DNA from: Streptomyces humicola
GTDB lineage: Bacteria; Actinomycetota; Actinomycetes; Streptomycetales; Streptomycetaceae
Assembly: GCF_024436035.1 (NCBI RefSeq)
Contig: NZ_JANFNG010000037.1
Coordinates: 1 to 57,363 of the forward strand
Length of the DNA stretch: 57,363 bases
Direction of reading: 5' to 3'
The position numbers and the translations under genes were made by a program. Positions within the stretch are counted from its first letter, which is position 1. Each line of letters begins with the position of its first letter. The notes below the pieces were generated by a model that saw nothing but the letters and a program-made list of their open reading frames with translations, did no database searches and was not told where the DNA came from. Shown piece by piece: positions 6,361 through 48,431 of this stretch.

Positions 6361-7748
6361 ACCGCTTCTTCGAGGCGGGGCTCCTGTCGCCGGCCGATCG
6401 GGCCGATCGCGGCGAGTGACGGACGCTGCGACAGCACATCACGGGCCACCGCGCGGACGTCGTCCGGGGTGACGGAGGCGATGCGCCCCAGCAGGTCGTC
6501 GACCGATATCTGCTCGCCCCAGCACAGCTCACTCTTGCCGATACGGTTCATCAGCGCACCGGTGTCCTCGAGCCCCAGCACGGTCGATCCGGAGAGCTGG
6601 CCGACGGCTCGCCGCAGTTCCTCGTCGCTCAGTCCGTTCTCGGCGACGTCGTGGAGCTCGTCGCGGCAGATCTTGAGCACCTCGCCGAGGTGGCCGGGGG
6701 CGCACCCCGCGTACACGCCGAACAGGCCGCAGTCCGCGAAGGACGAGGTGTACGAGTAGACCGAGTAGGCCAGGCCGCGCTTCTCGCGCACCTCCTGGAA
6801 GAGGCGTGAGCTCATGCCGCCGCCGAGCGCAGTGTTGAGCACGCTGAGCGCCCAGCGCCGGTCGTCGGTGCGCGACATGCCGGGCATGCCGAGCACCACG
6901 TGTGCCTGCTCGGTGCGCCGGTCGAGCACCTCGATGCGGCCGGCGCTGCGCAGGGTGCGGGTGCCGGAGCGCGTGGGGGCGGGTGCGGCGTCGGTGTCGT
7001 CGCCGAGCATGCCCGCCTGCTCGAAGGCGCGGCGGACCTGGCGTACGACCTTGGTGTGGTCGACGTTTCCGGCGGCGGTGACGAGCAGGTGGGTGGGGTC
7101 GTAGTGCTTCTTGTAGAAGCGGGCGAGCTGCGGCTGGGTGAGGGCGTTGATGGTCTCGACGGTGCCGAGGACAGGGCGGCCGAGGGGGGTCGGGCCGAGC
7201 ACCGCAGTGTCGAACAGCTCGTGCACCAGGTCGCTCGGGTCGTCGTCGGCCATCGCGATCTCTTCGAGGACGACGCCGCGTTCGGCCTCGACGTCCGCAG
7301 GGTCGATGAGGGAGCCGGTCAGCATGTCGCTGATGACGTCGATGGCGAGCGGCAGGTCGGAGTCGAGCACGCGTGCGTAGTAGCACGTGTACTCCTTGGC
7401 GGTGAAGGCGTTCATGTCGCCGCCGACCGCGTCGATGGCGGAGGAGATCTCCAGTGCGCTGCGCCGTGCGGTGCCCTTGAAGAGCAGGTGCTCCAGGTAG
7501 TGCGTGGCTCCGTTGAGAACCGGGGTCTCGTCGCGGGAGCCCACGTGGGCCCAGATGCCGAAGGTCACCGAGCGCAGGCTCGGCATCGTCTCGGTGATCA
7601 CTCTCAGGCCGCCGGGCAGCACGGTCTTGCGGATCGTGCCGGCGCCGCCGGCGCCCTTGATCAGCGTTCTGGTGAGGGCCTTGGTACGGGGGACGGCCCG
7701 CCCCTCCGAAGAAGTGCGGGCCGTCTTCCGGTGCGTACGGGACGTCAC
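6354..7748 (-). CDS. M16-family zinc metalloprotease
   Basis: A 464-residue mitochondrial-processing-peptidase-like protease. The inverted zinc motif HxxEH is at residues 83-87 (HYLEH), with the second glutamate site in [11 protein letters not shown]. The C-terminal M16 half contains [21 protein letters not shown]. It overlaps the pnp stop by 4 bases (ATGA), so it is translationally coupled to pnp, an arrangement usual in Streptomyces. The natural substrate is unknown. The stop codon falls inside the 17-bp repeat. Confidence 0.93.
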
Positions 7749-10003
7749 TTCGAGGTCTCTGCCTCGGTCTCGTCAGCCGCAGCAGCGGTGTCGGCCTTGT
7801 CGGCCTTGTCGCCGCCCTCGGCCTCCTCTTCGATGACGGGGATGAGCGAGAGCTTGCCGCGCTGGTCGATCTCGGCGATCTCGACCTGGACCTTGGCGCC
7901 GACCTTGAGCACGTCCTCGACGTTCTCCACGCGCTTGCCGCCGGCGAGCTTGCGGATCTGCGAGATGTGCAGCAGGCCGTCCTTGCCCGGCATGAGCGAG
8001 ACGAACGCGCCGAAGGTGGTGGTCTTGACTACCGTGCCCAGGTAGCGCTCGCCGACCTCGGGCATCGTCGGGTTGGCGATGCCGTTGATGGTGGCGCGCG
8101 CGGCCTCGGCGGCCGCGCCCTCGGCGGCGCCGATCAGCACGGTGCCGTCGTCCTCGATGGCGATCTCGGCGCCGGTGTCCTCCTGGATCTGGTTGATCAT
8201 CTTGCCCTTGGGGCCGATGACCTCGCCGATCTTGTCGACCGGGATCTTGATGGAGATGATCCGCGGGGCGTGCGGGGACATCTCGTCCGGCACGTCGATG
8301 GCCTCGCTCATCACGTCGAGGATGTGGAGCCGGGCGTCACGGGCCTGCTTCAGCGCGGCGGCGAGCACGGAGGCGGGGATGCCGTCGAGCTTGGTGTCGA
8401 GCTGGAGCGCGGTCACGAAGTTGCGGGTGCCCGCGACCTTGAAGTCCATGTCGCCGAACGCGTCCTCGGCACCGAGGATGTCGGTGAGCGTGACGTAGTG
8501 CGTCTGGCCGTCGATCTCCTGGGAGATCAGGCCCATGGCGATGCCCGCGACCGGGGCCTTGAGCGGCACACCGGCGTTCATCAGCGACATCGTCGAGGCA
8601 CAGACCGAGCCCATCGACGTAGAACCGTTGGAGCCGATCGCCTCGGAGACCTGGCGGATCGCGTACGGGAACTCCTCGCGCGTGGGCAGCACCGGGATGA
8701 GCGCCCGCTCGGCCAGCGCCCCGTGGCCGATCTCGCGGCGCTTGGGGGAGCCGACACGGCCGGTCTCACCGGTGGAGTACGGCGGGAAGTTGTAGTTGTG
8801 CATGTAGCGCTTGCGCGTCTCGGGCGAGAGCGTGTCCAGCTGCTGCTCCATGCGCAGCATGTTCAGCGTGGTGACGCCGAGGATCTGGGTCTCGCCGCGC
8901 TCGAAGAGTGCGGAGCCGTGGACCCGCGGGACGACCTCGACCTCGGCGGAGAGGGTGCGGATGTCGGTGACACCGCGGCCGTCGATGCGGACCTTGTCCT
9001 TGATGACGCGCTCGCGGACCAGCTTCTTGGTCAGCGCGCGGTATGCGGCCGAGATCTCCTTCTCGCGCCCTTCGAACTGCGGGAGCAGCTTCTCGGCGGC
9101 GACGCTCTTGACGCGGTCGAGCTCGTTCTCGCGCTCCTGCTTGCCCGCGATGGTCAGCGCCTGGGCGAGCTCGTCGCGTACCGCCTCGGTGAGCGCTTCC
9201 AGGACGTCGTCCTGGAAGTCCAGGTAGACCGGGAACTCGCCGGTCGGCTTGGCGGCCTTGGCGGCGAGGTCGGACTGGGCCTTGCACAGGGCCTTGATGA
9301 AGGGCTTGGAGGCTTCGAGGCCGGCGGCCACGATCTCCTCGGTGGGCGCCTCGGCGCCGCCCTCGACGAGCTTGATGGTCTTTTCGGTGGCCTCGGCCTC
9401 GACCATCATGATCGCCACATCACCGTCCTCGAGGACACGGCCTGCGACGACCATGTCGAACACGGCCTCCTCGAGCTCGCTGTGGGTCGGGAACGCCACC
9501 CACTGGCCGCGGATCAGCGCGACGCGCACGCCGCCGATCGGACCGGAGAACGGCAGGCCCGCGAGCTGCGTCGAGGCGGAGGCGGCGTTGATGGCGACCA
9601 CGTCATAGAGGTGGTCGGGGTTGAGTGCCATGACGGTGGCGACGACCTGGATCTCGTTGCGCAGGCCCTTGGCGAAGGACGGGCGCAGCGGGCGGTCGAT
9701 GAGCCGGCAGGTGAGGATCGCGTCCTCGGAGGGCCGGCCCTCGCGGCGGAAGAACGAGCCGGGGATGCGTCCGGCCGCGTACATCCGCTCCTCGACGTCC
9801 ACCGTCAGCGGGAAGAAGTCGAGCTGGTCCTTGGGGTGCTTCGAGGCAGTGGTGGCCGACAGGACCATGGTCTCGTCGTCCAGGTAGGCCACGGCGGAGC
9901 CGGCGGCCTGGCGGGCCAGGCGGCCCGTCTCGAAGCGGATGGTACGGCTGCCGAAGGAACCGTTGTCGATCACGGCTTCGGCGTAGTGGGTCTCGTTCTC
10001 CAC
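7745..10003 (-). CDS. pnp: Polyribonucleotide nucleotidyltransferase (PNPase)
   Basis: PNPase is a phosphorolytic 3'-5' exoribonuclease; in Streptomyces it also polymerises RNA 3' tails. The 752-residue protein has two RNase PH-like cores (conserved [21 protein letters not shown], and the catalytic [10 protein letters not shown]), then a KH domain ([13 protein letters not shown]) and an S1 domain ([13 protein letters not shown]). It ends in an acidic Ala/Glu/Asp tail. I chose the GTG at 10003 because GAGGAG lies 9 bases upstream and the start matches other Streptomyces PNPases ([10 protein letters not shown]). An ATG at 10024 would add 7 residues. Confidence 0.95.
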
Positions 10004-10302
10004 CAGGAATATCTCCTCGTCCATGCCACCGGCTCTGCCGGTGGCCTGCTGCGGTGGAGCGCCGCCTGCCGAACTGGGCGGGCCCGGCCGGGCCGGTCTT
10101 CGATCGAAGCCACCGGGGTACCGCGGATCGCGCTTCCCGGGGGCCACTACCGAGGACCGGCGCCTATGGCGCCTACGGCGCCGACTCGGCGGTCGGCGGG
10201 CGCTCCATCATCTGAGCGTTGTGCTTGGTGCTTGTGAAGTTGTGTCGCTGCCAGACTACAAAGGTTGCGGGCCGGCGACGATCGCGAAGGGCAAGTACGG
10301 CA
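10004..10302 (-). promoter_or_regulatory. rpsO-pnp intergenic leader region
   Basis: About 300 noncoding bases precede pnp. They contain a 9-bp-period GGCGCCTAT/GGCGCCTAC/GGCGCC run at 10159-10182 and a Gly-rich out-of-frame extension of pnp. In S. coelicolor pnp is known to be transcribed both by readthrough from rpsO and from its own intergenic promoters; I cannot point to a promoter box with confidence here. Confidence 0.45.
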
Positions 10303-10337
10303 AAGGGAGCGGCTCCCTCAGTGGGAACCGCTCCCTT
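10303..10337 (-). ncRNA. rpsO-pnp intergenic hairpin (likely RNase III site / attenuator)
   Basis: A 15-bp stem with one G-U pair encloses the loop ACTGA, read on the minus strand (outer arms AAGGGAGCGG and CCGCTCCCTT). It begins about 10 bases past the rpsO stop. The rpsO-pnp intergenic hairpin is a known RNase III cleavage site and partial terminator in enterobacteria and Streptomyces; this one matches in position and strength. Confidence 0.8.
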
Positions 10338-10346
10338 CACGGCGTC

Positions 10347-10634
10347 TTACTTGGCGCCCGCGGCGCCGCGGCGGATGCCGAGCTCGTCCACGAGAGCGCG
10401 GAAGCGCTGGATGTCCTTCTTGGCCAGGTACTGCAGCATGCGGCGGCGCTGGCCGACCAGGATCAGCAGACCACGGCGGGAGTGGTGGTCGTGCTTGTGG
10501 CTCTTCAGGTGCTCGGTCAGGCCAGTGATGCGGTGCGTGAGCAGCGCGACCTGGACCTCGGGGGAGCCGGTGTCGCCCGGCTTCGTGCCGTACTTCTCAA
10601 TGATCTGCTTCTTTGCGGCGGCGTCGATCGACAC
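10347..10634 (-). CDS. rpsO: 30S ribosomal protein S15
   Basis: S15 is a primary binder of 16S rRNA in the platform of the 30S subunit. The 95-residue sequence is typical, with [14 protein letters not shown], the [11 protein letters not shown] loop and [12 protein letters not shown]. The GTG start follows AAGGAG. It forms the conserved rpsO-pnp unit. Upstream are a small hairpin and three short direct repeats that may control it. Confidence 0.98.
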
Positions 10635-10667
10635 GCTGGCTCCTTGGGGGATTCTCGCCCGCGAGCG

Positions 10668-10689
10668 CCCCTGGTCTTCTTCTCAGGGG
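10668..10689 (-). promoter_or_regulatory. Small hairpin in the rpsO leader
   Basis: CCCCTG pairs with CAGGGG around a 10-base loop, about 35 bases upstream of the rpsO GTG. S15 represses its own translation through leader RNA in several bacterial phyla, so this is a candidate control element; the assignment is inference from position. Confidence 0.3.
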
Positions 10690-10730
10690 GTCTTCCGTTA
10701 CTCGGGAGGCGGGGCCGCGTGCTGCGTGGT

Positions 10731-10770
10731 TGCCACGTGGACGTGATGTGCCACATGGATGCCACACGGA
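10731..10770. repeat. Three direct repeats TGCCACRYGGA upstream of rpsO
   Basis: Copies at 10731 (TGCCACGTGGA), 10749 (TGCCACATGGA) and 10760 (TGCCACACGGA). The last two abut and the first is offset by 7 bases. They lie between the eccD remnant and rpsO, where the rpsO promoter should be. Confidence 0.6.
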
Positions 10771-10805
10771 TGCAGACACTCGGCCGTCACCCAGGGTACC
10801 AGCCG

Positions 10806-11312
10806 TCAGCCGGAGGTCAGCGCGCGGGCGGCGGCGTAGACGCCGAGGGCTCCGAGACGGAGCGGGACCGGGCAGAGCAGTACGGCTGCCTCGGCCACCT
10901 CCAAGGCACGGGACCACGGCGGCGTGACGTTCCTTCCGGGAAGCATCACCGCGACGGTGGTGAGCAGCGCGGCTCCCGTGGTGAGCGCGGCGGCCAGCCA
11001 GACGGTACCGGCTCCGCCGGGGGCTACCGACCGAGGGCGCCGCCGGACAGCAGCAGGCAGAGGGACACAGTCCCGGCGCCGAGCAGACAGGCGATCTGCG
11101 CGGTGTGCGGGAAGAGGCGGGCGCGCAGCACGGCGGCCGCCGCCGTGGCGAGGGCGAGCCATCGCTCCCAGCCGGAGCGCGAAAAGCCGGGCAACGACCG
11201 TGCAGCATCCGCCGACGAGCCCGGGCAGCAGCTCGTGGGCGCGGCGTGGCCTGGCGGCGGTGCGGGCCTCTCTGACGGGGAGCGGGGCCGCGCGGCGGCC
11301 GGTGGTCTTCAC
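10806..11312 (-). pseudogene. eccD: eccD remnant (type VII secretion membrane channel), frameshifted
   Basis: EccD is the multi-pass membrane channel subunit of actinobacterial ESX/type VII secretion. Here only its C-terminal half is readable, and it is split over two minus-strand frames. First comes a RAHELLPGLVGG segment near 11190-11250. A second frame carries WERWLALATAAAAVLRARLF to a stop at 11024-11026. The first frame then resumes with LTTVAVMLPGR, PPWSRALEVAE and LGALGVYAAARALTSG, stopping at 10806. Together these fit the last four or so membrane segments of EccD. The N-terminal ubiquitin-like and early membrane parts are gone. Two frameshifts make a functional product unlikely. The family match is from motif memory. 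Confidence 0.75.
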
Positions 11313-11353
11313 CGCCGGCCGGGTGCCGGGGTAGGCGCCGGGGTCGGATCAGG

Positions 11354-11596
11354 TCAGGTCAGGTCGAACTCGCCGTCCCGGGCGCCGAGGACGAATGCGC
11401 GCCACTCGGCTTCGGTGTAGCGCAGCACCGTGCCGGGGTCGGCGGAGTTGCGCATGGCCACCGCGCCGCCGGGCAGGTGGGCGATCTCGACGCGCTCCTC
11501 GGAGGTGTCGCCTGGGGCGCTCAGCCACTCGACGTCGGAGATGTCGAGGGCGTAGAGCTCCGCCTTCTCGTCTGCCTTCTCACGGGCGTCTGCCAT
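11354..11596 (-). CDS. bldB: BldB-like DUF397 developmental regulator
   Basis: An 80-residue protein of the DUF397 family. Motifs DISDVEW, VEIAHLPGGAVAMRNS, VLRYTEAEWRAFVLGARDGEFDL are very close to what I recall of S. coelicolor BldB, which is required for aerial growth and antibiotic production. The ATG at 11596 has an AAGGGA site; an in-frame start at 11650 would give 98 residues, the length reported for BldB. It lies upstream of the eccD remnant, matching the bldB position near the esx genes in S. coelicolor. Many DUF397 paralogues exist in Streptomyces, so the assignment rests on sequence plus position. Confidence 0.75.
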   Translation of the reverse strand: MADAREKADEKAELYALDISDVEWLSAPGDTSEERVEIAHLPGGAVAMRNSADPGTVLRYTEAEWRAFVLGARDGEFDLT

Positions 11597-11818
11597 GGGT
11601 CCACGTCCCTTCGTCACGGCGGCCGCGGGCCACCGGCCCGCCAGGATCACCGTACCGCCCGTGGCCGCCCGATCAGGTCACTCGTATGGAGGATGCGGCG
11701 CCTCGCGGGCGGTGGCCGGGATGCGTCCCCCGAGTGGGCTGCACCCGTTGACGGTGCACCAGATGCGGGTTACTCAGGCCTTGAGGGTGTGCGCCCGTTC
11801 CCCGTCGAAGGGATTGTC

Positions 11819-13417
11819 GTGAGACGACGGCTGTCGCGTTGTGCGGTCTCGATGGTGCTCATCCTCGGAGCCGCGACGGGGGCGGGCACGGCCGCCGCTT
11901 CCGCTTCTTCGCCCGTACCCGCCTCCGTGGCCGCCTCGGCGAGACCGCTGGGTGACGTGGTGCCCGCTCCGGCGTCCGTACGGCCGGACGGCGCCGCGTA
12001 CACGATCGGATCCCGCACTCGGATCCACGCGCCGTCGCGCTCCGCCGTGGGCGTGGCCGACTACCTCGCCCGTCTGCTGCGGCCGTCGACCGGATACGCC
12101 CTGCCGGTCTCCCGGCGGTCCGGGCGCGGCGGGATCGCCCTGCGGCTCGACGGCCCGCAGTGGCTGGGCAGCGAGGGCTATCAGCTTCAGGTACGCGGCA
12201 GCGGCATTGTCGTCCGAGCGCACGCGGCCGCCGGGCTCTTCCACGGGGTGCAGACGCTGCGGCAGTTGCTGCCCGCCTCGGTCGAGCGCAGGACGCGGCA
12301 GCCCGGGCCGTGGACGGTCGCGGGCGGCACGATCACCGACACACCGCGCTACGGCTACCGCGGTGCGATGCTCGATGTGGCACGGCACTTCTTCACCGTC
12401 GCCCAAGTCGAGCGCTATATCGACGAGATAGCGCTGTACAAGATCAACCGGCTGCACCTGCACCTATCGGACGACCAGGGGTGGCGAATAGCGATCGACT
12501 CCTGGCCGCGTCTTGCGCGGTACGGCGGCTCCACGGAGGTGGGCGGCGGCCCCGGCGGGTACTACAGCAAGGCACAGTACGAACAGATCGTGCGGTATGC
12601 GGCGAGCCGCTACATCACCGTCGTCCCGGAGGTCGACATGCCGGCGCACACCAACGCGGCACTGGCCTCGTACGCCGAGTTGAACTGCGACGGCAAGGCG
12701 CCTCCGCTCTACACCGGGACCAACGTCGGGTTCAGCTCGCTGTGCGTGCGGAAGGCCGTCACGTACGCGTTCGTCAGCGATGTGCTGCGGGAGGTCGCGG
12801 CGCTCACGCCCGGGCCGTATCTGCACATCGGCGGTGACGAGGCCCATTCGACGAGCGCGGCGGACTACGCGGCGTTCATGGATCGCGTACAGCCGCTCGT
12901 CGGCAGGTACGGCAAGACGGTGGTGGCCTGGCACGAGATCACCGACGCGAACCCGGTGCCGGGGGCGATCGCGCAGTACTGGGGGACGACCGGGAACGAG
13001 GCGAGCGTCATCGCCGCCGCGAGGGCCGGGACGCGGTTGGTCATGTCACCGGCCAATCACGCTTATCTGGACATGAAGTACAACCCGTCGACGAAGCTCG
13101 GGCTGAGCTGGGCCGGGTACACGGAGGTGAAGGACGCCTACGACTGGGATCCCGCGACCTTCCTGTCCGGCGCGCCCGCTTCCGCCGTCATCGGTGTGGA
13201 GGCGCCGCTGTGGTCGGAGACGGTCGTGACCGGCGACGACATCGACTACATGGCGTTCCCGCGGCTGCCCGCCATCGCGGAGCTCGGCTGGTCGCCCGCC
13301 GCGACACACGACTGGGAAGGGTTCAGCGAACGGCTGGCGGCGCAGGGGCCGCGCTGGGACGCGATGGGCATCGACTACTACCACTCGCCGCAGGTGCCGT
13401 GGCCCGCCGCTGGATAG
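11819..13417 (+). CDS. Secreted GH20 beta-N-acetylhexosaminidase
   Basis: GH20 enzymes remove terminal GlcNAc/GalNAc from chitin oligomers, glycans or muropeptides by substrate-assisted catalysis. The 532-residue product has a signal peptide (RRRLSR then a hydrophobic stretch, cleavage near residue 30 after an Ala-rich AxA), a GH20b domain, then the barrel (HLHLSDDQGWR). The catalytic pair D340-E341 is in HIGGDEAH. The GTG start follows GAAGGG. It is divergent from bldB and lies between two type VII secretion remnants, with opposite orientation to them. A role in chitin use or wall turnover is likely; the exact substrate is unknown. Confidence 0.9.
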   Translation: MRRRLSRCAVSMVLILGAATGAGTAAASASSPVPASVAASARPLGDVVPAPASVRPDGAAYTIGSRTRIHAPSRSAVGVADYLARLLRPSTGYALPVSRRSGRGGIALRLDGPQWLGSEGYQLQVRGSGIVVRAHAAAGLFHGVQTLRQLLPASVERRTRQPGPWTVAGGTITDTPRYGYRGAMLDVARHFFTVAQVERYIDEIALYKINRLHLHLSDDQGWRIAIDSWPRLARYGGSTEVGGGPGGYYSKAQYEQIVRYAASRYITVVPEVDMPAHTNAALASYAELNCDGKAPPLYTGTNVGFSSLCVRKAVTYAFVSDVLREVAALTPGPYLHIGGDEAHSTSAADYAAFMDRVQPLVGRYGKTVVAWHEITDANPVPGAIAQYWGTTGNEASVIAAARAGTRLVMSPANHAYLDMKYNPSTKLGLSWAGYTEVKDAYDWDPATFLSGAPASAVIGVEAPLWSETVVTGDDIDYMAFPRLPAIAELGWSPAATHDWEGFSERLAAQGPRWDAMGIDYYHSPQVPWPAAG

Positions 13418-13446
13418 AGTTCCGGCCATGTCGGGGATTCGCCGCG

Positions 13447-13671
13447 TACGGCGGCCCCTCGCACAAGCCGAGGATCGAAGTCGGCCCGACAACGCCCTGG
13501 AACCACAACGGCATCCAGCGCTACACGGCAACCGCCCATGTCACCGTCACCTACTGGCCGAGCTCATGCGTCCCGCCCTCCGCTGTCGTGCACAGCATCG
13601 CCCAGCGGCTGAAGGACGGAACCGTGCACGAGTGGGTGATCCATGCGGACCAGCGGGTTCGGGGGCACTGA
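13447..13671 (+). pseudogene. Coding-like fragment of unknown origin
   Basis: One plus-strand frame from about 13447 to a TGA at 13669-13671 has strong G/C at third positions and a protein-like composition (PWNHNGIQRYTATAHVTVTY, then VHSIAQRLKDGTVHEWVIH). No start codon with a ribosome binding site opens it, and it begins just after the hexosaminidase stop. I do not recognise the family. It is probably the 3' part of a lost gene. Confidence 0.4.
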
Positions 13672-13739
13672 CGGAGGCTCAGATCGAGAAGATTACGAGC
13701 ACAGTCCGGCCGTCCCGCAGCTGACCGCCTCGCCGCCGT

Positions 13740-13841
13740 TCACCGGCGGCTCCTCCCGTCCCGTACGGCGACGGCCCCGCCCACGACCACGGCGAGCAGG
13801 ACGGCCGCGCCGACGACGCTGCGACCACGCGTCGGAAACGG
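13740..13841 (-). pseudogene. Membrane-anchor tail resembling MycP (mycosin) C-terminus
   Basis: The frame one base off the eccB remnant reads FPTRGRS, then a 17-residue hydrophobic helix (VVGAAVLLAVVVGGAVAV), then RDGRSRR and TGA. A single C-terminal helix with a basic tail is how the type VII secretion subtilase MycP ends. Alternatively a one-base frameshift split a single gene. No start codon or protease domain is present. Confidence 0.45.
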
Positions 13842-14049
13842 GGACGGGCTGCGCATGGCCGTAGCCGAGGCGGAACTGCGCGTCGTCGGTTCCGGCCGAG
13901 GCGGGAAGGGCGTATCGCAGGCCGGTGTCGGTGACGAGGCCGATCTGCCCGTCGGCGGTGTCGCGGTACGCGGGCGGCAGACCGCGCCGCGGCGCCGACG
14001 GTCGGCGACGCCGCACGTAGAGCACCTGGCCGTCGTGGAGCCGGCCGCG
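13825..14049 (-). pseudogene. eccB: eccB C-terminal remnant (type VII secretion)
   Basis: EccB is a membrane-anchored periplasmic ATPase-like core subunit of ESX secretion. A minus-strand frame carries DGQVLYV at 14014-14034, then GQIGLVTDTGLRYALP and FRLGYGHAQPVPVSDAW ending at 13825. These match the EccB C-terminal pattern VTDTGxRYxL...LGY...PVPxxW. The frame then runs into Arg-rich noise. The N-terminal membrane anchor and most of the protein are missing and no start is plausible. Assignment rests on recalled motifs. Confidence 0.7.
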
Positions 14050-14404
14050 CGGAAGCCGCCCGGCGTTGTCGGACCGGCCCTCTACTGTGCCGGTAGGCGA
14101 TGAGGATGTGCCGCCCGGGTGCGGTGCGCGGATGTCGGGCAGGGGGCGGGCCTGACATACCAGGGGCATGCACGATTAGGCTGTACTTCGGAGCGGCAGG
14201 AGGACAGCAAGGGTGTTCCGACCGGGCTCCGCGGGCCCCGTGAACGAGGGGATTCGGGGCCGGCCGGGCGGACTGCCGCGGCACAGGGGGAGGTTTCTCC
14301 GGTATGCACGGCATGCGCCGTACGGGCCGTATCCGCGCCCTAGATGCCGTACGCCCGTGTATGACCTCGCCGTTCGCGAGCATGACAGCAATCCAGGAGG
14401 CACA
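14050..14404. other. Noncoding stretch before the EspI-like gene
   Basis: About 355 bases with no gene I can support. It should hold the promoter of the EspI-like ATPase gene and possibly further decayed type VII secretion sequence on the minus strand. Confidence 0.5.
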
Positions 14405-16768
14405 GTGAGCAGCGATCGGGACGACAACCGCTTCGGCGGCGACGGGGCGCGGTCGCGCGAAGCCGATTACACCGGCGAGTTCACCATCGACTACACGCCG
14501 CCCGCCTGGTACATGACGAACGGGGAGGACGGCTCCGAGCCGGAGCCCAAGCAGCCTGTGGCGCCGGATGCCAGGGAGGAGCCGGCGGCATCGGCGGCGT
14601 CGGGCGGGAGTTCATGGTCGGCGCCGCCGGCGCCGAGCTCCGGCAGTGGTCCGAGCTTCCCCGCCTTCAAGCCCAACTCCGGTGAGGAGAGGCCGGAGTC
14701 GTCGTCATCTGAGGCGGCGTCATCGGACAATTCGGGCGACGATCTGCCAGGAGCTGTGCAGAGCGAATCCACCATGCGCTTCTCCGCGATCTCCCTGAAG
14801 AACACCAAGGCGCCGCAAACCAGTTCAGAACCGGCGGATGACGACACCTCCGGCAGCGGCGGCACCAAGGCGCCCCAAACCTTCGCCTCCACCGAGCGTT
14901 TCTCCGCGATCTCGCTGAAGCAGAACAAGGAGCCCCTCGAGGAGAAGCCCAAGGCCGCCGCCCCCGCTGCCCCGACCGCTCCGACGACGCCCACGCCTCC
15001 TCCCCCGCCGACTGCGCACGAGGAGCGCAAGCCCGAGCCCGCGCCGGCGACGGAGCCGCGCGACCCGGCACCGGCCCCTCAGGCACCGCCGCAGCAGCCT
15101 CCGCATCCGCAGCACGCTGCCGCGGCGCCTCCCGCCGGACCGCCGACGCCGCCCAACCCTACGGGCGCACCGGGCGCACCCGCCGCCGCCCAGCCCTGGG
15201 CATCGCAGGGCCCGAACTCGGCCTGGTCCCCGCAGCATCCGCAGCCTCCGCAGCAGCCCGTGCCGCCGCTTCCGCCGCAGTACCAGGCGGCGCAGCCGCC
15301 CACGCCGCAGGCACCCCAGCCGCCCGCGTACGGATACCCGCAGCCGCCCGCACCCGGGCCCAACTCGCCCTCCGTGCCGCTGCCGCCGCCGAGCCCGACA
15401 CAGCAGCCGCCCACCGCGTACGGCTACCCGCAGCCGCAGCCTCAACCACAGCCTCACCAGCAGCAGCCTCCGCAGCAGCAGGCCGGGCGGGCGGCGCCTA
15501 CCGCGGACCCCCGCGCCGCCGGCTGGCCGACCGTCCCGCCAGAGCAGCGCCAGCACGGCCCGGGCGGCGCGCCCCTCGGCTACACGGCAGCGGTGGAGCT
15601 GTCGTCCGACCGTCTGCTGCGCAATCAGCCCAAGCCCAGGAAGCCCGGCAGCAACCTCCCCGGCGCCGGCCGGTTCAAGCTCGGTGGCAAGGCCGCCGAG
15701 GCCGAGCGCCAGCGCAAGCTGGAGCTGATCCGCACCCCGGTGATGTCCTGCTACCGGATCGCGGTGATCAGCCTGAAGGGCGGCGTCGGCAAGACCACGA
15801 CGACCACCGCACTCGGTGCCACCCTCGCATCCGAGCGCCAGGACAAGATCCTGGCGATCGACGCCAACCCGGACGCGGGCACGCTCGGACGCCGCGTCCG
15901 CCGCGAGACGGGGGCCACCATCCGCGACCTCGTCCACCAGCTGCCGTTCCTCAACAGCTACATGGACATCCGCCGTTTCACCTCACAGGCGCCCTCGGGC
16001 CTGGAGATCATCGCCAACGACGTGGACCCGGCCGTGTCGACCACGTTCGGCGACGAGGACTACCGGCGGGTCATCGAAGTCGTCGGCCGTCAGTACCCGA
16101 TCGTCCTCACCGACTCAGGCACCGGTCTGCTCTACAGCGCCATGCGCGGCGTGCTCGACCTCGCCGATCAGCTGATCATCATCTCGACGCCGTCCGTCGA
16201 CGGTGCGAGCAGTGCGAGCACCACGCTCGACTGGCTCTCGGCCCACGGCTACGCGGACCTGGTCGCGCGCAGCCTCACCGTGATCTCCGGGGTCCGCGAG
16301 ACCGGAAAGATGATCAAGGTGGACGACATCGTCGCGCACTTCCAGACGCGCTGCCGCGGCGTGATCGTGGTCCCGTTCGACGAGCACCTGGCGGCCGGCG
16401 CCGAGGTCGACCTGGACATGATGCGGCCGAAGACACGCGAGGCGTATTTCAACCTCGCCGCGATGATCGCGGAGGACATCGTGCGCACCCAGCAGGGCGG
16501 TGGCCAGGGCATGTGGGGGCAGCCCGACGGCAATGCACCGCAGCCGCAGATGGGCCAGCCGATGCCCGGCCAGCCCATGCCGGGTCAGCCCATGCCGCAG
16601 CACCCGTACTACCCTGCCGGGCCCGGCCCGCAGGGCGGTCCGCCGCCTCAGCAGCCCCAGGCGCAGTATCCGCAGCAGCCGGGCGGGCCACAGGGATGGC
16701 CGCAGCAGCAGCCCCAGCAGCAACCGCAGCCGGGGTACGGCTACCCCCCGCCACCTCCGCAGCAGTGA
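14405..16768 (+). CDS. Pro/Gln-rich ParA/MinD-type ATPase, EspI-like
   Basis: A 787-residue protein. Residues 1-440 are low-complexity, rich in Pro, Gln, Ala and Ser. Residues 446-700 form a ParA/MinD ATPase with a deviant Walker A (LKGGVGKTT, 457-465; signature lysine K458, catalytic lysine K463). The tail has GQPMP repeats and Gln/Pro runs. Two copies of RFSAISLK sit 40 residues apart, starting near residues 125 and 165. The GTG start follows CCAGGAGG. Mycobacterial EspI (Rv3876), encoded in the ESX-1 locus, has the same plan, and in Streptomyces this gene lies beside the type VII secretion genes. Here those genes are decayed but this frame is intact. It may act as a polarity or secretion regulator; that is inference. 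Confidence 0.8.
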
Positions 16769-16841: not shown

Positions 16842-17789
16842 TCACCCGTCGACGAGTTCGCGTGCGCGCTTCACATCGACGGCCATCCGCTCGAGCAGCG
16901 CATCGATCGAGTCGAACTTCTCCTGCCCGCGCAGGAAGGCGTAGAAGTCGACGGCGACGTGCAGGCCGTAGAGGTCGAGACCGACGCGGTCGATCGCGTA
17001 CGCCTCCACCGTGCGGTTGGTGCCGTCGAACGTCGGGTTGGTGCCGACCGAGATCGCCGCGGGCATCGACTCCCCCTCGACGACGAGCCAGCCCGCGTAG
17101 ACGCCGTCGGCGGGGATCGCCGAGTGCGGCAGCGTCTCCACGTTGGCCGTCGGGTATCCCAGCTCGCGGCCGCGCTGCGCACCCCGTACGACCACGCCCT
17201 CGACCCGGTGCGGACGGCCGAGTACCTCGGCCGCGCCCGCGACGTCCCCCTCGGCGACCAGTCGTCGCGTCAGCGAGGACGAGAACGGCTCGCCGCCGCC
17301 CGCCTCCCCCGCGACGAACAGATCGACAACGTCGACCTCGAAGTCGTACTTGAGCCCGAGAGCCGACAGATATTCCACGTCGCCGGCCGCCTTGTGCCCG
17401 AACCGGAAGTTCGGGCCTTCCACCACCACCTTGGCGCCGAGCGCCTCGACGAGCACCGTACGGACGAAGTCGCCGGGCGACAGCTGGGAGAAATCGGTGG
17501 TGAAGGGCAGGATCAGCAGGGCGTCCACGCCCAGCTCCGCCATGAGCTCGGCACGCCGGTGGTGTGCGGCGAGCAGCGGCGGGTGGCTGCCAGGCCGGAC
17601 GACCTCGCTGGGGTGCGGGTCGAAGGTGACGACCACCGACGGAATCCCCAGCTCCCGGGCGTGTGTGACCGCATGGCCGATGATCAGCTGATGCCCGCGG
17701 TGCACACCGTCGTAGGAACCGATGGTGACGACGCTGCGCCCCTGCGCCCAATCCTCGGGAACGTCCTCCAAGCCCCGCCAGCGCTGCAC
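16842..17789 (-). CDS. ribF: Bifunctional riboflavin kinase / FAD synthetase
   Basis: RibF phosphorylates riboflavin to FMN and adenylates FMN to FAD. The 315-residue protein has the N-terminal nucleotidyltransferase signatures GSYDGVHRGH and TFDPHP, and C-terminal kinase signatures GYPTANVE, SVGTNPTFDG and FLRGQEKFDS. The GTG at 17789 is chosen because GAGGAG lies 8 bases upstream and it gives the normal length. The Phe of the usual GxFDGVHxGH motif is Tyr here, a mild variation. It lies downstream of the large NTPase gene with a 113-base gap. Confidence 0.95.
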   Translation of the reverse strand: MQRWRGLEDVPEDWAQGRSVVTIGSYDGVHRGHQLIIGHAVTHARELGIPSVVVTFDPHPSEVVRPGSHPPLLAAHHRRAELMAELGVDALLILPFTTDFSQLSPGDFVRTVLVEALGAKVVVEGPNFRFGHKAAGDVEYLSALGLKYDFEVDVVDLFVAGEAGGGEPFSSSLTRRLVAEGDVAGAAEVLGRPHRVEGVVVRGAQRGRELGYPTANVETLPHSAIPADGVYAGWLVVEGESMPAAISVGTNPTFDGTNRTVEAYAIDRVGLDLYGLHVAVDFYAFLRGQEKFDSIDALLERMAVDVKRARELVDG

Positions 17790-17902
17790 CGTGACCGCTC
17801 CTCGCCCGAACGAACTGTGTCGTGCCGATGTGATGACGGTCCAAGACTGCCATGCCGTGGCGCGCCCGACGGAATCGGGCGCCCCGGCCGGCCGCACGGA
17901 GC

Positions 17903-20900
17903 CTAGGACGGGAGCGGCAGCCGCTCGCACATGTGGCGGGCGCTCGGGCCGACCACGGCATCCCATTCGGTGCAGGCCAGCCAGTCGCGGACATGCGCCG
18001 CAAACGACGGCGAGGCGCTGGCGAGCTGCACCAGGCGGCGGTCGAAGTACGCCGCGCCCTCCGCGGTGCGGCCCAGCAGCAGGCCGACGCGGTGGACCAG
18101 CTCCCTGGTCTGCACCGCCGGTCGGCCCAGGCACCCCTCGGCGGCCTGCTGCAGCAGCGCTTCGAGAACGGCCGGATCCCGCTCCCGCTCCAGCAGCACA
18201 TCGAGCAGCTCCTGCCGCAGCGGGCGCGAGACGGCGCCGCCGGGCGCTGCGAGGACGGGAGCGATCGCACGGCGCATCTCGGGACGGCCCTCCCGCAGCA
18301 GCCCGACCGCGAGCGGAAAGACGACGGCACGCCCGGCGGGCCCTTGTTCGAGGCGGCGCTCCAGGTAGTCGGCGACGTGGCGGGCGCCCTCGGGACGGTG
18401 GTCCGCGTACGAGCGGACGCAGGCGGCTGCGCGTCGCGCCAGCGCAGGGGTGGTCTGCGCCGCGAGCTCGGCGAGGATCTCCGCATCCGCGACCCCGCCC
18501 GGTTCGCGCAGCCGCGCCTGGAAGGCGGCGAACACCGGCTCCGGATGGGTGGGCAGCGCCACGCCGATCGCGCTCGCGGGAACATAGCGGTCACCGGAGA
18601 CGAAACGGGCGAGCGCCGCGCCCAGATGACGGTTGCGGGTCACCGGGTCCCGCACCAGGAGGGCGAGCGCGGCGCCGTGCAGTGAGCAGTCGGAGGCGCG
18701 GCCCAGCAGCGCGAGCGCGGCGTAGCGCAGCAGCTCGCGGTCGGGCTCGGAGCATACGTGTGCGGCCGCCCGCAGCCCGTACGTCGCGGCCGCGACGCGG
18801 CGTTCCGGGCGGTCGTCGTGGGCCCAGCGGTCGACGGCGCGGCACACCGCCGAGGGCTCGTCCTTCGCCAGCGCGGCGAGCAGGCGGTCCGCACGAGGGT
18901 GAGCGGTGTCGACGAGCGCCTCGGTGAGGGCGTCGATGTCGTGGTGGCGGTGGGTGTGCAGGAGGATGTGCACGGCAGCGGCGACGGTGCGTCCTGTGCC
19001 CGGCACCGGCCGGTCGTCGTCGAACCAGCGGCAGATGACGGGCAGCGCGGCCTCGGCATCGGCGCAGAGCAGCTGCCCCGCCGCGGCGAGGAAGCTCCCT
19101 CCGTCCGCCATGCCTTCAGCCGTGTCGTCCACCGTGCCGCGCCGCCCGTCGGCCGGAAGCATCAGACGGATCAGTTCAAGCCGACCGGCGACGGGAAGCG
19201 GCAGCCGCCGCCAGAACCACGGCCCGAACTCACCGAGCCCGTCGAGGGCGGTGGTGAACCCTCCGTGCCGGCCGGCCCGCGCGGTGATGCGTCCGGCGAG
19301 GCGACGCAGAACGCCCCGGTACGGCTCGGCGTCCGGGACCCGCAGCAGCACCTCCCCGAGCAGGTGCGCCGCCCACCAGACGGCGTCCTTGCAGCGCGCC
19401 GCATCGCCGGCGCCAACGGCTGCCGCCGTGTCGAGCGCGTCCACCAGGGCGTCCAGCCTGCGGGCGAGGTGGTCCGGGCCGTCGCGCCGCCCGGCCAGCA
19501 GCAGCGACTGGACGACGGGTCCGATGCGGTGGCGCGGCACGGGCAGCACATGCGGCGCGTCGGTGGGGGCGACCGACGGAGCGGGCGGTGGGGGCGGTGC
19601 GCCGCCGTCGCACGTGCCGGGCCGCACCGTCGTCACCGGGTGCGAGGGCAGCCGTACGACGGCCTCCCTGCGGCTCGTGACGGACGCGAACCAGCGGTGC
19701 ACGAGGGCGTGCAGCGCCGCCTCCAGGTCGATATGGGAGCCCTGCAGCCAGTCGGCGAACTCCTCGTGGGCGAACCGGTATCCGGCCCCTGCGGGGACGA
19801 GCAGCCCCTCGGTGAGCACGGCGGAGGCCCAGCCGGTGCGCCAGGGGAAGATCTCCTCGAACGCCTCCCGGTCCAACTCGCCCTGTCCCGGGCCGAGGCA
19901 GCGGCGCGCGGCCTCGTGCACCTGCCCCGCCACCCGGGCCGCCATCCGCCGCACGTCGTGCGGCCCGTACGACTCCCCGGCGGACTCGCCGAGCCGCACC
20001 GCCATCCGCAGACAGACCAGGTCCAGGTGGGCCGAGAAGACCGCTTCCCGGGTCGGGGCGCCCTCGACGTCGGGGGCCGCTGCGCGCACTTCTGAGAGCA
20101 GCCGCAGCGTGAGCGGGTGCGCGGCGTCGGCCGGGGCGATCCGTCCGGCCTCGATGCCGTACAGCTGCCTGGCCCGCTCGGCCTGCCGCGGCCGCAAGTC
20201 CCCGAGGCGTACGCAGTCGGGCAGGGCTCGCGCCGGGGCGCCGGGCGGCGCGGTGGGACCGGACCAGTGCGGACGGTAGAGCAGACCGGGCGGGAAGAGG
20301 GCACCGGCCTGCTCCCAGTGCTCGGGCCGGCATGCCACGACGAGCCGCACGCCCGCCGCGCGCAGCCAACTCGTCGTGCCGGATGTCCAGTCGGGCAGTG
20401 CATGCGCCAGCACGGGCGGCATCTCCTCGGGCGCGTCGAGGAGTACGAGCAGCGGGCGCCCTGCCGCGCGCGCCAGATGTGCGACGGCGTCAGGGGTGGC
20501 TTCGGCAGCCTCACCCACCTCGCCCGCCCGCCCGTCGCCCACCTCCGTCCTCAACGGAGGCGCTGCGCGCCCCTGAGCTGATCGCGATGCATCCACGATG
20601 CGGCCGGCGGCGCGCAGCGACCGCTCGACGGCCTCCTTCAACCCACCGTCACCCGGCCGCAGTTCGGCACCGCGCAGCCATACGGTGGGCGCGGGACGGG
20701 AGCCGCGGGCGCGCCGCGCGGCGAGCGCGCCGAGCTCGGTCGTCCGTCCGCAGCCGGGGTCGCCGACGAGCCCGAGGACGAGCGGACCGTCGTCCGCTGC
20801 TTCCAGGAAGCGGCGCAGTTCGGCTTCGACGCCCGGCCTGCGGACCGGTTCACGCCATTCGCGCGGGAGCCCGGCGGCGGCCGAGCCGACCGAGGTCGCG

Positions 20901-21532
20901 GTGAGCTGCAGCGCACCCGCGAGGTTCAGATGCGGGCCGTAGGCGGGCACGGTCGCGGCGTTGCGCGCCACGAGCTCCGCGAGCGGGCCGTCGGTGCGCA
21001 GCGGGACGGCGAACGCGGCCGCGCTGCGGGAGGCGTGCAGCGCGGTGGCGACAACGCCGAGCACCGCTCCCGTGTGCGCGTCGATCAGCGGGGTTCCGGA
21101 GGGGGGAGCCTCCGGCGCGCCCGTGGTGAGGGCGTACGCCTCCTCCAGCAGGTGGTAGCGGTCGGTGGCGGTGTATGTGGCGGCGACGACACCGGTGACG
21201 GCCGCATCGGCCCGGGTCGGGCCCGGCAGCCGGACGCGGCCCTCGGGGTCGGAAGGGCCGTGGCAGGCGATGGGCAGCGCAGGAACGGTGAGCCCTTCGG
21301 TCGCCACCACGGCCAGGCCCTCCTCGGGGTACGGGGTGATGGCATCGGGGCCGACGAGGCAGGTCTGCTCGCCGTGCGCGTGAAGCACCAGCCTCGCCAG
21401 GCCGTCGACGGCTTCGTGGCTGGTCAGCAGGGTGCCGTCGGTATCGGCGATGAAGCCCGTGCCGCGCGGCCGCCCGGCCAGGTCGCAGATCCGCACCAAT
21501 GCGTCATCCGCATCGGCCCCCCGTACCGCCAT
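17903..21532 (-). CDS. Predicted trypsin-like / STAND-type NTPase / helical-repeat protein
   Basis: A 1,209-residue protein. Residues 1-190 look like a trypsin-type serine protease fold: His39 in TSHEAV and Ser145 in PPSGTPL fit the active site, but the expected Asp position reads EEGLAVV, so the triad may be incomplete. An NTPase core follows with Walker A GDPGCGRTT (257-265; Arg263 replaces the usual Lys) and Walker B LLVLLD (361-366), then CRPEHW. The region after about 740 is a long array of alpha-helical, HEAT-like repeats rich in Ala, Arg and Leu. This three-part plan resembles predicted STAND conflict proteins of multicellular bacteria. The ATG at 21532 has GGAGAGG upstream. The function is unknown; the position between truB and ribF could be conserved. 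Confidence 0.7.
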   Translation of the reverse strand: MAVRGADADDALVRICDLAGRPRGTGFIADTDGTLLTSHEAVDGLARLVLHAHGEQTCLVGPDAITPYPEEGLAVVATEGLTVPALPIACHGPSDPEGRVRLPGPTRADAAVTGVVAATYTATDRYHLLEEAYALTTGAPEAPPSGTPLIDAHTGAVLGVVATALHASRSAAAFAVPLRTDGPLAELVARNAATVPAYGPHLNLAGALQLTATSVGSAAAGLPREWREPVRRPGVEAELRRFLEAADDGPLVLGLVGDPGCGRTTELGALAARRARGSRPAPTVWLRGAELRPGDGGLKEAVERSLRAAGRIVDASRSAQGRAAPPLRTEVGDGRAGEVGEAAEATPDAVAHLARAAGRPLLVLLDAPEEMPPVLAHALPDWTSGTTSWLRAAGVRLVVACRPEHWEQAGALFPPGLLYRPHWSGPTAPPGAPARALPDCVRLGDLRPRQAERARQLYGIEAGRIAPADAAHPLTLRLLSEVRAAAPDVEGAPTREAVFSAHLDLVCLRMAVRLGESAGESYGPHDVRRMAARVAGQVHEAARRCLGPGQGELDREAFEEIFPWRTGWASAVLTEGLLVPAGAGYRFAHEEFADWLQGSHIDLEAALHALVHRWFASVTSRREAVVRLPSHPVTTVRPGTCDGGAPPPPPAPSVAPTDAPHVLPVPRHRIGPVVQSLLLAGRRDGPDHLARRLDALVDALDTAAAVGAGDAARCKDAVWWAAHLLGEVLLRVPDAEPYRGVLRRLAGRITARAGRHGGFTTALDGLGEFGPWFWRRLPLPVAGRLELIRLMLPADGRRGTVDDTAEGMADGGSFLAAAGQLLCADAEAALPVICRWFDDDRPVPGTGRTVAAAVHILLHTHRHHDIDALTEALVDTAHPRADRLLAALAKDEPSAVCRAVDRWAHDDRPERRVAAATYGLRAAAHVCSEPDRELLRYAALALLGRASDCSLHGAALALLVRDPVTRNRHLGAALARFVSGDRYVPASAIGVALPTHPEPVFAAFQARLREPGGVADAEILAELAAQTTPALARRAAACVRSYADHRPEGARHVADYLERRLEQGPAGRAVVFPLAVGLLREGRPEMRRAIAPVLAAPGGAVSRPLRQELLDVLLERERDPAVLEALLQQAAEGCLGRPAVQTRELVHRVGLLLGRTAEGAAYFDRRLVQLASASPSFAAHVRDWLACTEWDAVVGPSARHMCERLPLPS

Positions 21533-21599
21533 GTTCGAACCTCTCCGCCGAAACCACTGAAAACAGAAAAAGTCCACTTCAGTGCAGTTCGACGGTAGG

Positions 21600-21615
21600 T
21601 GTCGGTAGATCGACA
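21600..21615. promoter_or_regulatory. Inverted repeat TGTCG-N6-CGACA upstream of the STAND-like gene
   Basis: A perfect 5-bp inverted repeat lies 68-83 bases before the start codon, next to an unusually A/T-rich patch (about 21550-21580) within the 178-base gap after truB. It is a possible operator; no known box was recognised. Confidence 0.3.
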
Positions 21616-21710
21616 CAACAGAGCCCGAGGCGAAAGCGCCCCCTTGCACCCCCGCGATTCACTCCGCGCGCCTGCCCATTGGGGTGAATTCGGGCCACGG
21701 AAGGGATGGG

Positions 21711-23383: not shown

Positions 23384-23570
23384 CAGGTGTCAAGCCGACC
23401 CGTCAAGGCATGGTGTCAACGGTACATTCGATGTCAACCGGGCTGGTTCCAACCCGGCTGGTGCTGATCGCGCAAGACTCGATCGTTCGCTCAACGGCCG
23501 AGCAGCGTGAGCTAGGAATCTCCCTGCTTCAGCTGGGAGAGGGTTCAAAACAGTAGCGGCCACGACCGGA

Positions 23571-47474: not shown

Positions 47475-47582
47475 CGGCCAGTTTGTGACGGTCCGTGACG
47501 CGGTGAAGAACCTGTGCGGGGCTGGGGAGATTCGGTTCGCCGTACTCCCCGGCGACCGCCGTGTGACCTACCGTGGTCGCAG

Positions 47583-48431
47583 ATGAAGGAACCACCCCGC
47601 TCGCGGGAGACTGCGAGCGACACCCTGCCGGCGACCCCCCATCGCCGGTTGTGCAGTGCCCTCGCGCGCAACACCGCCGGAGCCGAAGGCCCTGGCAATC
47701 CTCGTCGATCGGTCGGCCGCCCGTCCCAAACCCCCCGGGGCGAGCGGTGCGGCGATCGTCACGGCCGCCTCGGGACTCTCCCCCCTGTCCCGGGGCGGCC
47801 AACTGCTTTCCTGGTGACGGTCGTCGGGGCATGCGCGCTGCTTCTCGCGCTCCTCACCTGGCAAGTGGCCGTCCATGGCCCGCTGTTCCACTCGGACACG
47901 GGCGTCGACTCCGCCGTGCTGCAGGCCGCCGCGCGGTATCGATTCCTCACCCCCGCCGCCCAGTTCCTCGCCGATCTCGGCGACATCCAGGTCGCGGTGC
48001 CGGCGCTCGCCGCCGCCCTGGGGTACGCCGCCTGGTACCGCCGGCGCGCGGGGCATGCCCGCTGGTGGCTGCCGTCGGCCTGCTGTGCGCTGGTCATGGC
48101 GCTGGTGGGACCGGTGATCGTGCCGTTGAAGGATCTGGTCTCCCGCCCGGCCCCCGGCAGCACCGTGCTCCTCGGCCACTCCGGCTACTTCCCGTCGGGG
48201 CATGCGTCGACGGCGGCGATGGCCTGCGGGCTCGCCCTGCTGGCCACCCTGCCGCTGCTGCGGAGCACGTCAGCACGGCGGCTGCTGGTGGCTGCCGCCG
48301 TGCTGCTCAATGGTGCGGTGGGCGCCGGCCTCGTCTGGCGCGGCTACCACTGGCCGCTCGACGTGGCGGCCGCCTGGTGCCTCAGCGGTGTGCTGCTGGG
48401 TCTCACCCGTTGGTGGGGAAGCCCAGGTTGA
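47583..48431 (+). CDS. PAP2-superfamily phosphatase, membrane
   Basis: A 282-residue membrane protein. The phosphatase motifs are KDLVSRPAPG, SGHAST and RGYHWPLD, the last lacking part of the usual SRx5HxxxD pattern but keeping His and Asp. About five or six hydrophobic segments are seen. It may dephosphorylate lipid phosphates. The start is uncertain: the ATG at 47583 has no clear ribosome binding site and the first 75 residues are unconserved-looking. The 3' end overlaps the convergent mmsA gene by 29 bases. Confidence 0.8.
   Translation: MKEPPRSRETASDTLPATPHRRLCSALARNTAGAEGPGNPRRSVGRPSQTPRGERCGDRHGRLGTLPPVPGRPTAFLVTVVGACALLLALLTWQVAVHGPLFHSDTGVDSAVLQAAARYRFLTPAAQFLADLGDIQVAVPALAAALGYAAWYRRRAGHARWWLPSACCALVMALVGPVIVPLKDLVSRPAPGSTVLLGHSGYFPSGHASTAAMACGLALLATLPLLRSTSARRLLVAAAVLLNGAVGAGLVWRGYHWPLDVAAAWCLSGVLLGLTRWWGSPG

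Follow-up and report, generated by a model that had tools for sequence, protein, structure and literature searches.

We have analyzed a stretch of 57,363 nucleotides from Streptomyces humicola, referred to below as the window; it is the whole of contig C30 of a 7.07-Mb genome (G000) that is assembled in 78 contigs and listed as 100% complete. Between rpsO and ribF the window carries the decayed remains of a type VII (ESX) secretion locus, next to which the gene for a ParA/MinD-like ATPase of the SCO5717 family is intact. The best explanation overall, to which we assign a probability of about 0.9, is that the ESX locus was lost piecemeal in this lineage and that the ATPase was kept for a need other than ESX. 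Of eccD, mycP, eccB and a fourth gene, here called ORF-X, only 3' stubs remain, and no credible match to eccC, eccE, ORF236 or the esx genes was found at the locus. The erosion would have been stepwise, because the junctions require at least four separate deletions. The ATPase would probably be preserved for a function in growth or in positioning of the ParA/MinD kind, and its gene could be expressed alone through a conserved upstream element of its own.

The ESX locus of S. coelicolor presumably sits between rpsO and ribF as well. In relatives with a complete locus (G006 and G017) the gene order is pnp(-), rpsO(-), eccD(-), eccC(+), further genes, esx(-), GH20(+), ORF-X(+), mycP(-), eccB(-), eccE(+), ORF236(+), ATPase(+), ribF(-), and the same order is found in the parts of the locus fetched from G013 and G016. 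EccB, EccE, a subtilase and two WXG100 proteins were confirmed by Pfam in the locus of G006. The order in the window is pnp(-), rpsO(-), eccD stub(-), bldB(-), GH20(+), ORF-X stub(+), mycP stub(-), eccB stub(-), ATPase(+), ribF(-); with the exception of bldB, the stubs and the intact genes match the intact relatives in order and strand. The genus is represented by two genomes, that of the window and a sister, G001, which the tree described below places closest to the window (100% support in the Shimodaira-Hasegawa-like approximate likelihood ratio test). Beside rpsO the sister has EccD (expectation value, E, 6.6e-80) and EccC, and it was scored as ESX-bearing from these two only; its contigs break off within eccC and a short way into the ATPase gene, so that any eccB between them is out of view. 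A preliminary description of this DNA had proposed a decayed ESX locus at the chromosomal place of intact ones, and the agreement in order and strands together with the eccD and eccC of the sister bear this out.

The eccD pseudogene (10815-11288, minus strand) retains only the 3' third of the gene; its reading frame changes at least twice and is interrupted by one in-frame stop. An open reading frame (ORF) at 10806-11312 on the same strand matches Pfam PF19053 with E 2e-16 (60.3 bits, cut-off 30), and the profile search of the whole genome resolved the stub into three pieces which alternate between two frames: 10818-11018 (profile positions 273-339), 11015-11185 (219-275, with one TAG inside) and 11175-11288 (179-216). 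At the DNA level the stub is about 70% identical to the intact eccD of the sister, and one alignment of the two shows fifteen internal gaps. The genes around it are 90-95% identical to those of the sister; rpsO, ribF and the ATPase domain align without gaps, and pnp has gaps of 3, 3, 12, 5 and 1 bases. The eccB pseudogene (13819-13962, minus strand) corresponds to the C-terminal part, with weaker similarity by eye to about 14040. Searched genome-wide, the Pfam EccB model misses this stub and also matched no control genome, so local profiles were built; PF05108 by itself gives 17.2 bits here, under its cut-off of 27. The stub reaches 35.2 bits with a C-terminal profile based on nine intact relatives, against 7.1 for the best of 300 dinucleotide shuffles. 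All that remains of mycP is its C-terminal membrane tail of 24 residues (13743-13814, minus strand), which scores 14.1 bits with a C-terminal profile from nine relatives, while the best of 300 shuffles reaches 8.9 and the rest of the window 6.7; a full-length MycP profile gives less than 12 bits at this tail. The mycP and eccB stubs lie four bases apart, while the intact pair occupies about 2.7 kb together in G006, and therefore the bulk of mycP has been deleted together with the extreme end of eccB. The fourth remnant (13435-13659, plus strand) is the C-terminal part of ORF-X and matches residues 284-358 of a 380-residue proline-rich, membrane-type protein that is encoded between GH20 and mycP in G006 (61% identity, E 4e-22); this protein has no Pfam match.

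Searches of the locus with an EccC query and profile, two Esx queries and EccE gave no credible match for eccC, eccE or esx, and none to ORF236 was found there either. Three single-query matches were judged to be due to chance: EccB at 11659-11859 (E 0.022), which is on the wrong strand and contains stops, EccD at 14197-14286 (E 0.15), and EccC over bldB (E 0.99). A hidden Markov model built on MycP and EccB ORFs that had not been trimmed produced spurious MycP matches of low complexity, and the trimmed C-terminal profiles were used instead. The remnants of eccD and eccB, the possible mycP tail, the lack of eccC, esx and eccE at the locus, and the intactness of bldB and the ATPase gene had all been put forward in the preliminary description and all stand; its inventory did not mention the GH20 gene and the ORF-X stub.

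The preliminary description had also called for a search for an intact ESX system in the rest of the genome, and none was found as judged by EccB, EccD and EccC. In whole-genome searches there is no EccB match anywhere in G000, EccD exceeds its cut-off solely as the stubs at the locus, and canonical EccC (TIGR03925) has ten matches, none at the locus and none over the cut-off of 346.55 bits, the best being 199.7 bits on contig C44. EccE was not found and mycosin is represented only by the tail described above; these two results apply to the locus, since genome-wide searches for EccE and mycosin were not made. The YukD model PF08817 has no match in the genome, which carries no weight because the model is untried on ESX-bearing Streptomyces. 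Three WXG100 matches occur, all on other contigs, and one of these is over the cut-off.

The ATPase gene was placed at 14405-16768 (plus strand) with a start codon of our choosing; the listed ORF begins at 14213. Its product has a long proline-rich N-terminal part, matches NF041021 with 47.2 bits (cut-off 35), and exceeds the cut-offs of AAA_31 and CbiA, which are ParA-type P-loop families. The gene was found in 24 of 24 genomes searched, including all 18 without an EccB match. One of these is G185, in which EccB has no match, EccD is below its cut-off, the best EccC match has E 7.9e-11 and there is no WXG100 match; it retains the ATPase with 90% identity and a bldB with 66%. Taken alone the negative WXG100 result in G185 is not decisive, because the Esx proteins of S. 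scabies have been reported to lack the WXG motif (PMC8401907). Together these results suggest that the ATPase likely has a role independent of secretion, and to this extent the earlier claim that the survivors of the locus have secretion-independent jobs is upheld; the same claim for bldB is not, as discussed below. The case rests more on the family than on the window. What the role might be can only be guessed: membership in the family would point to a ParA/MinD-like positioning function. The NCBIfam name calls the SCO5717 family growth-regulating, a property known here from the name alone, and no paper containing the term SCO5717 was present in the literature searched.

The strongest competing explanation, although one that we regard as improbable, is that the ATPase is retained because it serves another type VII-like pair, consisting of a long FtsK-like ATPase and a WXG100 gene. 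Such a pair, which the ATPase could serve, does exist in G000, where a 1595-codon FtsK-like ORF adjoins a WXG100 gene on contig C76 (about 72,800-77,900; 6777-11857 of the fetched segment L216), and this counts against our reading. A long FtsK-like frame of more than 1,470 codons was also present, among the matches listed, in 19 of 23 other genomes. Against this explanation, the pair and the ATPase are on different contigs in G000, and G185 keeps the ATPase with neither a WXG100 match nor a better EccC match than the one given above. The sister genome has a comparable FtsK-like/WXG100 pair on its contig C114.

Less probable still is that the ATPase is a bystander, adjacent to ribF and not yet decayed, which is under no selection of its own. 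Some losses of ESX do look recent, to judge from short branches between lineages that have lost and kept it. The ratio of nonsynonymous to synonymous differences (pN/pS) in the ATPase is, however, as low in lost as in kept lineages. It is 0.08 over 285 codons between the window and the sister. For the ATPase domain it ranges from 0.018 to 0.082 in five lost/kept pairs, from 0.052 to 0.117 in four kept/kept pairs and from 0.017 to 0.058 in three lost/lost pairs; one further kept/kept pair (L036/L064, pN/pS 1.72) was dropped, as its ratio looks like an unaligned indel. A bystander would also not be expected in all 18 of the genomes that lack an EccB match.

By itself the window is an ordinary case of pseudogenes; the interesting part is the repetition of the pattern in other genomes. 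A search of 200 genomes of the family gave an EccB in 182, covering 16 of 17 genera, not always at the rpsO-ribF locus. Among the 18 genomes without it, eight have EccC over the cut-off, nine have neither EccC nor EccD over the cut-off, and G000 has the EccD stubs only. At the level of loci, 80 named loci were taken as the best of 253 ATPase matches: EccB lies upstream in 41 of them, in 26 others rpsO is nearby and there is no EccB, and the remaining 13 were unscorable. Among the last is L069 of Streptomyces alfalfae, with matches to EccC, EccE, ORF236 and Esx-type proteins, a bldB, part of EccD (the flank ends there) and no EccB match; this is possibly a half-lost locus. The genes eccE and ORF236 are each covered over at least 60% of their length in 40 of the 41 loci with EccB, and in none of 39 loci without it (0 of 26 named loci and 0 of 13 others, the latter from genomes chosen for lacking EccB, with four duplicating named loci); in all 39 they are missing or reduced to stubs. 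Similar ESX-less loci whose edge likewise falls immediately ahead of the ATPase recur in Streptomyces and related genera. Stubs scoring at least 12 bits were recognised in three of the 26 EccB-less loci, namely L057 (EccC), L073 (EccD) and L085 (EccD, together with pieces of EccE and ORF236); reversed control segments gave no match in 39. At 12 bits the full-length profiles miss the MycP tail of the window itself, and thus equally short stubs in other loci would go unnoticed too.

From the ATPase domain and ribF a tree was built with 66 of 85 candidate rows, 19 being left out for having too little ribF; G013 was not a candidate, and L139, L140, L144 and L147 (duplicates) as well as L145 (a suspected duplicate, although this suspicion is unsupported) had been left out beforehand. 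On this quick two-gene tree, made from the locus itself, the ESX state changes 14 times, and at least 12 changes are forced by well-supported branches. We infer that most of the ESX-less loci are losses. The opposite history, in which a short rpsO-ATPase-ribF arrangement is ancestral, ESX loci were inserted many times horizontally and the window represents a failed or partial insertion, seems to us very unlikely. It draws on the fact that the tree cannot polarise the changes and on the 23 of 26 named EccB-less loci that are without stubs at the threshold used. It is opposed by the wide occurrence of EccB in the family, not always at this place, by the stubs of the window, which keep the order and strands of the intact locus in relatives of several genera, and by the eccD and eccC of the sister. 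Among titles and the openings of abstracts, which mostly do not cover subscription papers, no description of repeated ESX loss in Streptomyces was found, and we make no claim that it is absent from print.

Several further observations weigh against the explanation that ESX was lost and the ATPase kept for another need. Nothing in these data shows the function of the ATPase. The eight EccB-less genomes with EccC are not free of type VII genes (in G001 one copy is the gene of the locus itself, on a broken contig, and in the other seven genomes EccC is encoded elsewhere). The named loci were fetched with the ATPase as the query, and its presence in them is therefore by construction. Recognisable stubs are carried by just the three EccB-less loci named above, and parsimony counts cannot separate loss from gain. 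Finally, the protein of the eccD stub is just 55% identical to the EccD of the sister and 58% to that of G006, a divergence exceeding that of the flanking genes within the genus, and for this reason the history of the locus may include exchange.

An error that dropped or misplaced ESX genes could be suspected in an assembly of 78 contigs, and is highly implausible here: order and strands match the relatives, the sister has eccD and eccC, no EccB, EccD or EccC over its cut-off occurs elsewhere in a genome listed as complete, and frame changes and a stop of the kind that break the stubs cannot be produced by loss of contigs.

The genes at the locus that are open, according to the ORF list and family searches, are those for the ATPase, bldB and GH20. 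The bldB-type DUF397 gene (11354-11650, minus strand; PF04149 44.4 bits, cut-off 24) is inverted relative to other loci: bldB and the ATPase are on one strand in all 40 named loci that hold both, and on opposite strands in the window. No bldB was seen in the ESX loci fetched from the close relatives G006, G013, G016 and G017 (partial for G013 and G016), and none was found at E <= 1e-17 anywhere in these four genomes; since the contig of the sister ends inside eccC, the absence of bldB there carries no weight. The best relatives of the bldB in the window are BldB proteins of Streptomyces, the identity reaching 90% over 70 columns. In a BldB tree it is drawn inside the Streptomyces set, and a topology that puts it outside is not rejected (approximately unbiased test, p-AU 0.342). 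In view of the relatives' ESX loci without bldB, the gene may have been gained horizontally, or kept and inverted. A developmental role for BldB has already been published, in a paper whose available text contains neither of the terms "type VII" and "ESX" (PMC10294661). Because bldB is inverted, was unseen in the ESX loci of four relatives and has a published developmental role, its persistence is weak evidence for secretion-independent survival and adds little. The canonical bldB is SCO5723 (PMC10294661), and the gene was described as universal in streptomycetes and restricted to them (PMC4255298) before its range was widened to other Actinobacteria and BldB was linked to paralogues and WhiJ-type regulators (PMC10294661). 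In intact ESX loci (L020-L095 and others) the place of bldB varies; it follows eccC in some, and in others it lies between esx and mycP or in the stretch from eccB to the ATPase. The record of locus L080 bears the name Kitasatospora aureofaciens; in the BldB tree it forms a pair with Streptomyces violaceorubidus, whose locus is built in the same way, and the record may be mislabelled.

The third open gene (11819-13417, plus strand; start codon chosen by us, listed ORF from 11477) encodes a beta-N-acetylhexosaminidase of glycoside hydrolase family 20 (GH20), with the domains PF00728 (E 9.5e-87) and PF02838 (E 1.8e-26). Because a GH20 gene is at the same place in G006, G013, G016 and G017 with 73-77% identity, the gene is most simply seen as an old resident that outlived the ESX locus and not as a later insert. 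Two intergenic elements are conserved as well. A 32-base element of the divergent region between eccB and eccE is preserved at 14064-14095 (alignment to G006, G016 and G017), and a second element lies upstream of the ATPase gene at 14172-14200 on the plus strand (alignment to G006, G013 and G016, weaker in G017). In intact loci eccE and ORF236 are co-directional with the ATPase. The second element is a candidate for the ATPase gene's own promoter region.

The flanking genes are rpsO (10347-10634, minus strand), whose protein is 95% identical to that of the sister over 87 residues, and ribF (16842-17804, minus strand), placed by comparison with relatives and the sister; its listed ORF continues to 18134. 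Next to ribF, at 17903-21649 on the minus strand, is a gene for a protein of 1248 residues with a trypsin-like domain just under the Pfam cut-off and a weak match to OloA in PADLOC (E 0.0039). This gene looks like an insertion, because the alignment of the sister contig skips the stretch, and it is possibly related to defence. A stretch of 124 bases at 23435-23557 is 85% identical to one between rpsO and pnp on contig C24 of the sister; its place differs here, and it could represent one end of a small mobile element. Rfam identified an Actino-pnp RNA at the start of pnp (10092-10161, minus strand) and a member of the small RNA family Scr5676 at 47581-47713 (plus strand). A megablast search of plasmids with the window returned three records, of which the best covers 13%.

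The S. coelicolor-type ESX locus has the same gene families as the locus described here, and the ATPase family takes its name from SCO5717. In the window, by contrast, the genes for the machine are missing or reduced to stubs and bldB has the opposite orientation, and the locus used to include GH20 and ORF-X. Another streptomycete without an ESX system, Streptomyces sp. KE1, has been reported as one strain of a chosen set (PMC8401907). In this respect KE1 resembles the window, although the section on KE1 gives no stubs, locus edge or surviving neighbours.

The finding has a practical side, in that an ESX system should not be inferred from the presence of an ATPase of the SCO5717 family or of bldB. 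For comparison, the EspI-type ATPase of mycobacterial ESX-1 is likewise ParA/MinD-like, with a proline-rich N-terminal part, and is encoded beside an ESX locus. The SCO5717 family differs in that it occurs here also in genomes without an EccB-type ESX. We lean slightly towards the view that the ATPase of the SCO5717 family lies outside the secretion machine, as an ancient and conserved protein with a role in the cell biology of the Streptomycetaceae. On this view ESX loci would appear and disappear next to it, with a breakpoint that recurs between ORF236 and the ATPase gene; the EspI-like ATPases of other ESX loci may then be of the same class, recruited as a partner. Close species with and without ESX at this place and with the same ATPase, such as S. 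rishiriensis (L085) and S. humidus (L094), provide material with which the ATPase can be separated from secretion.

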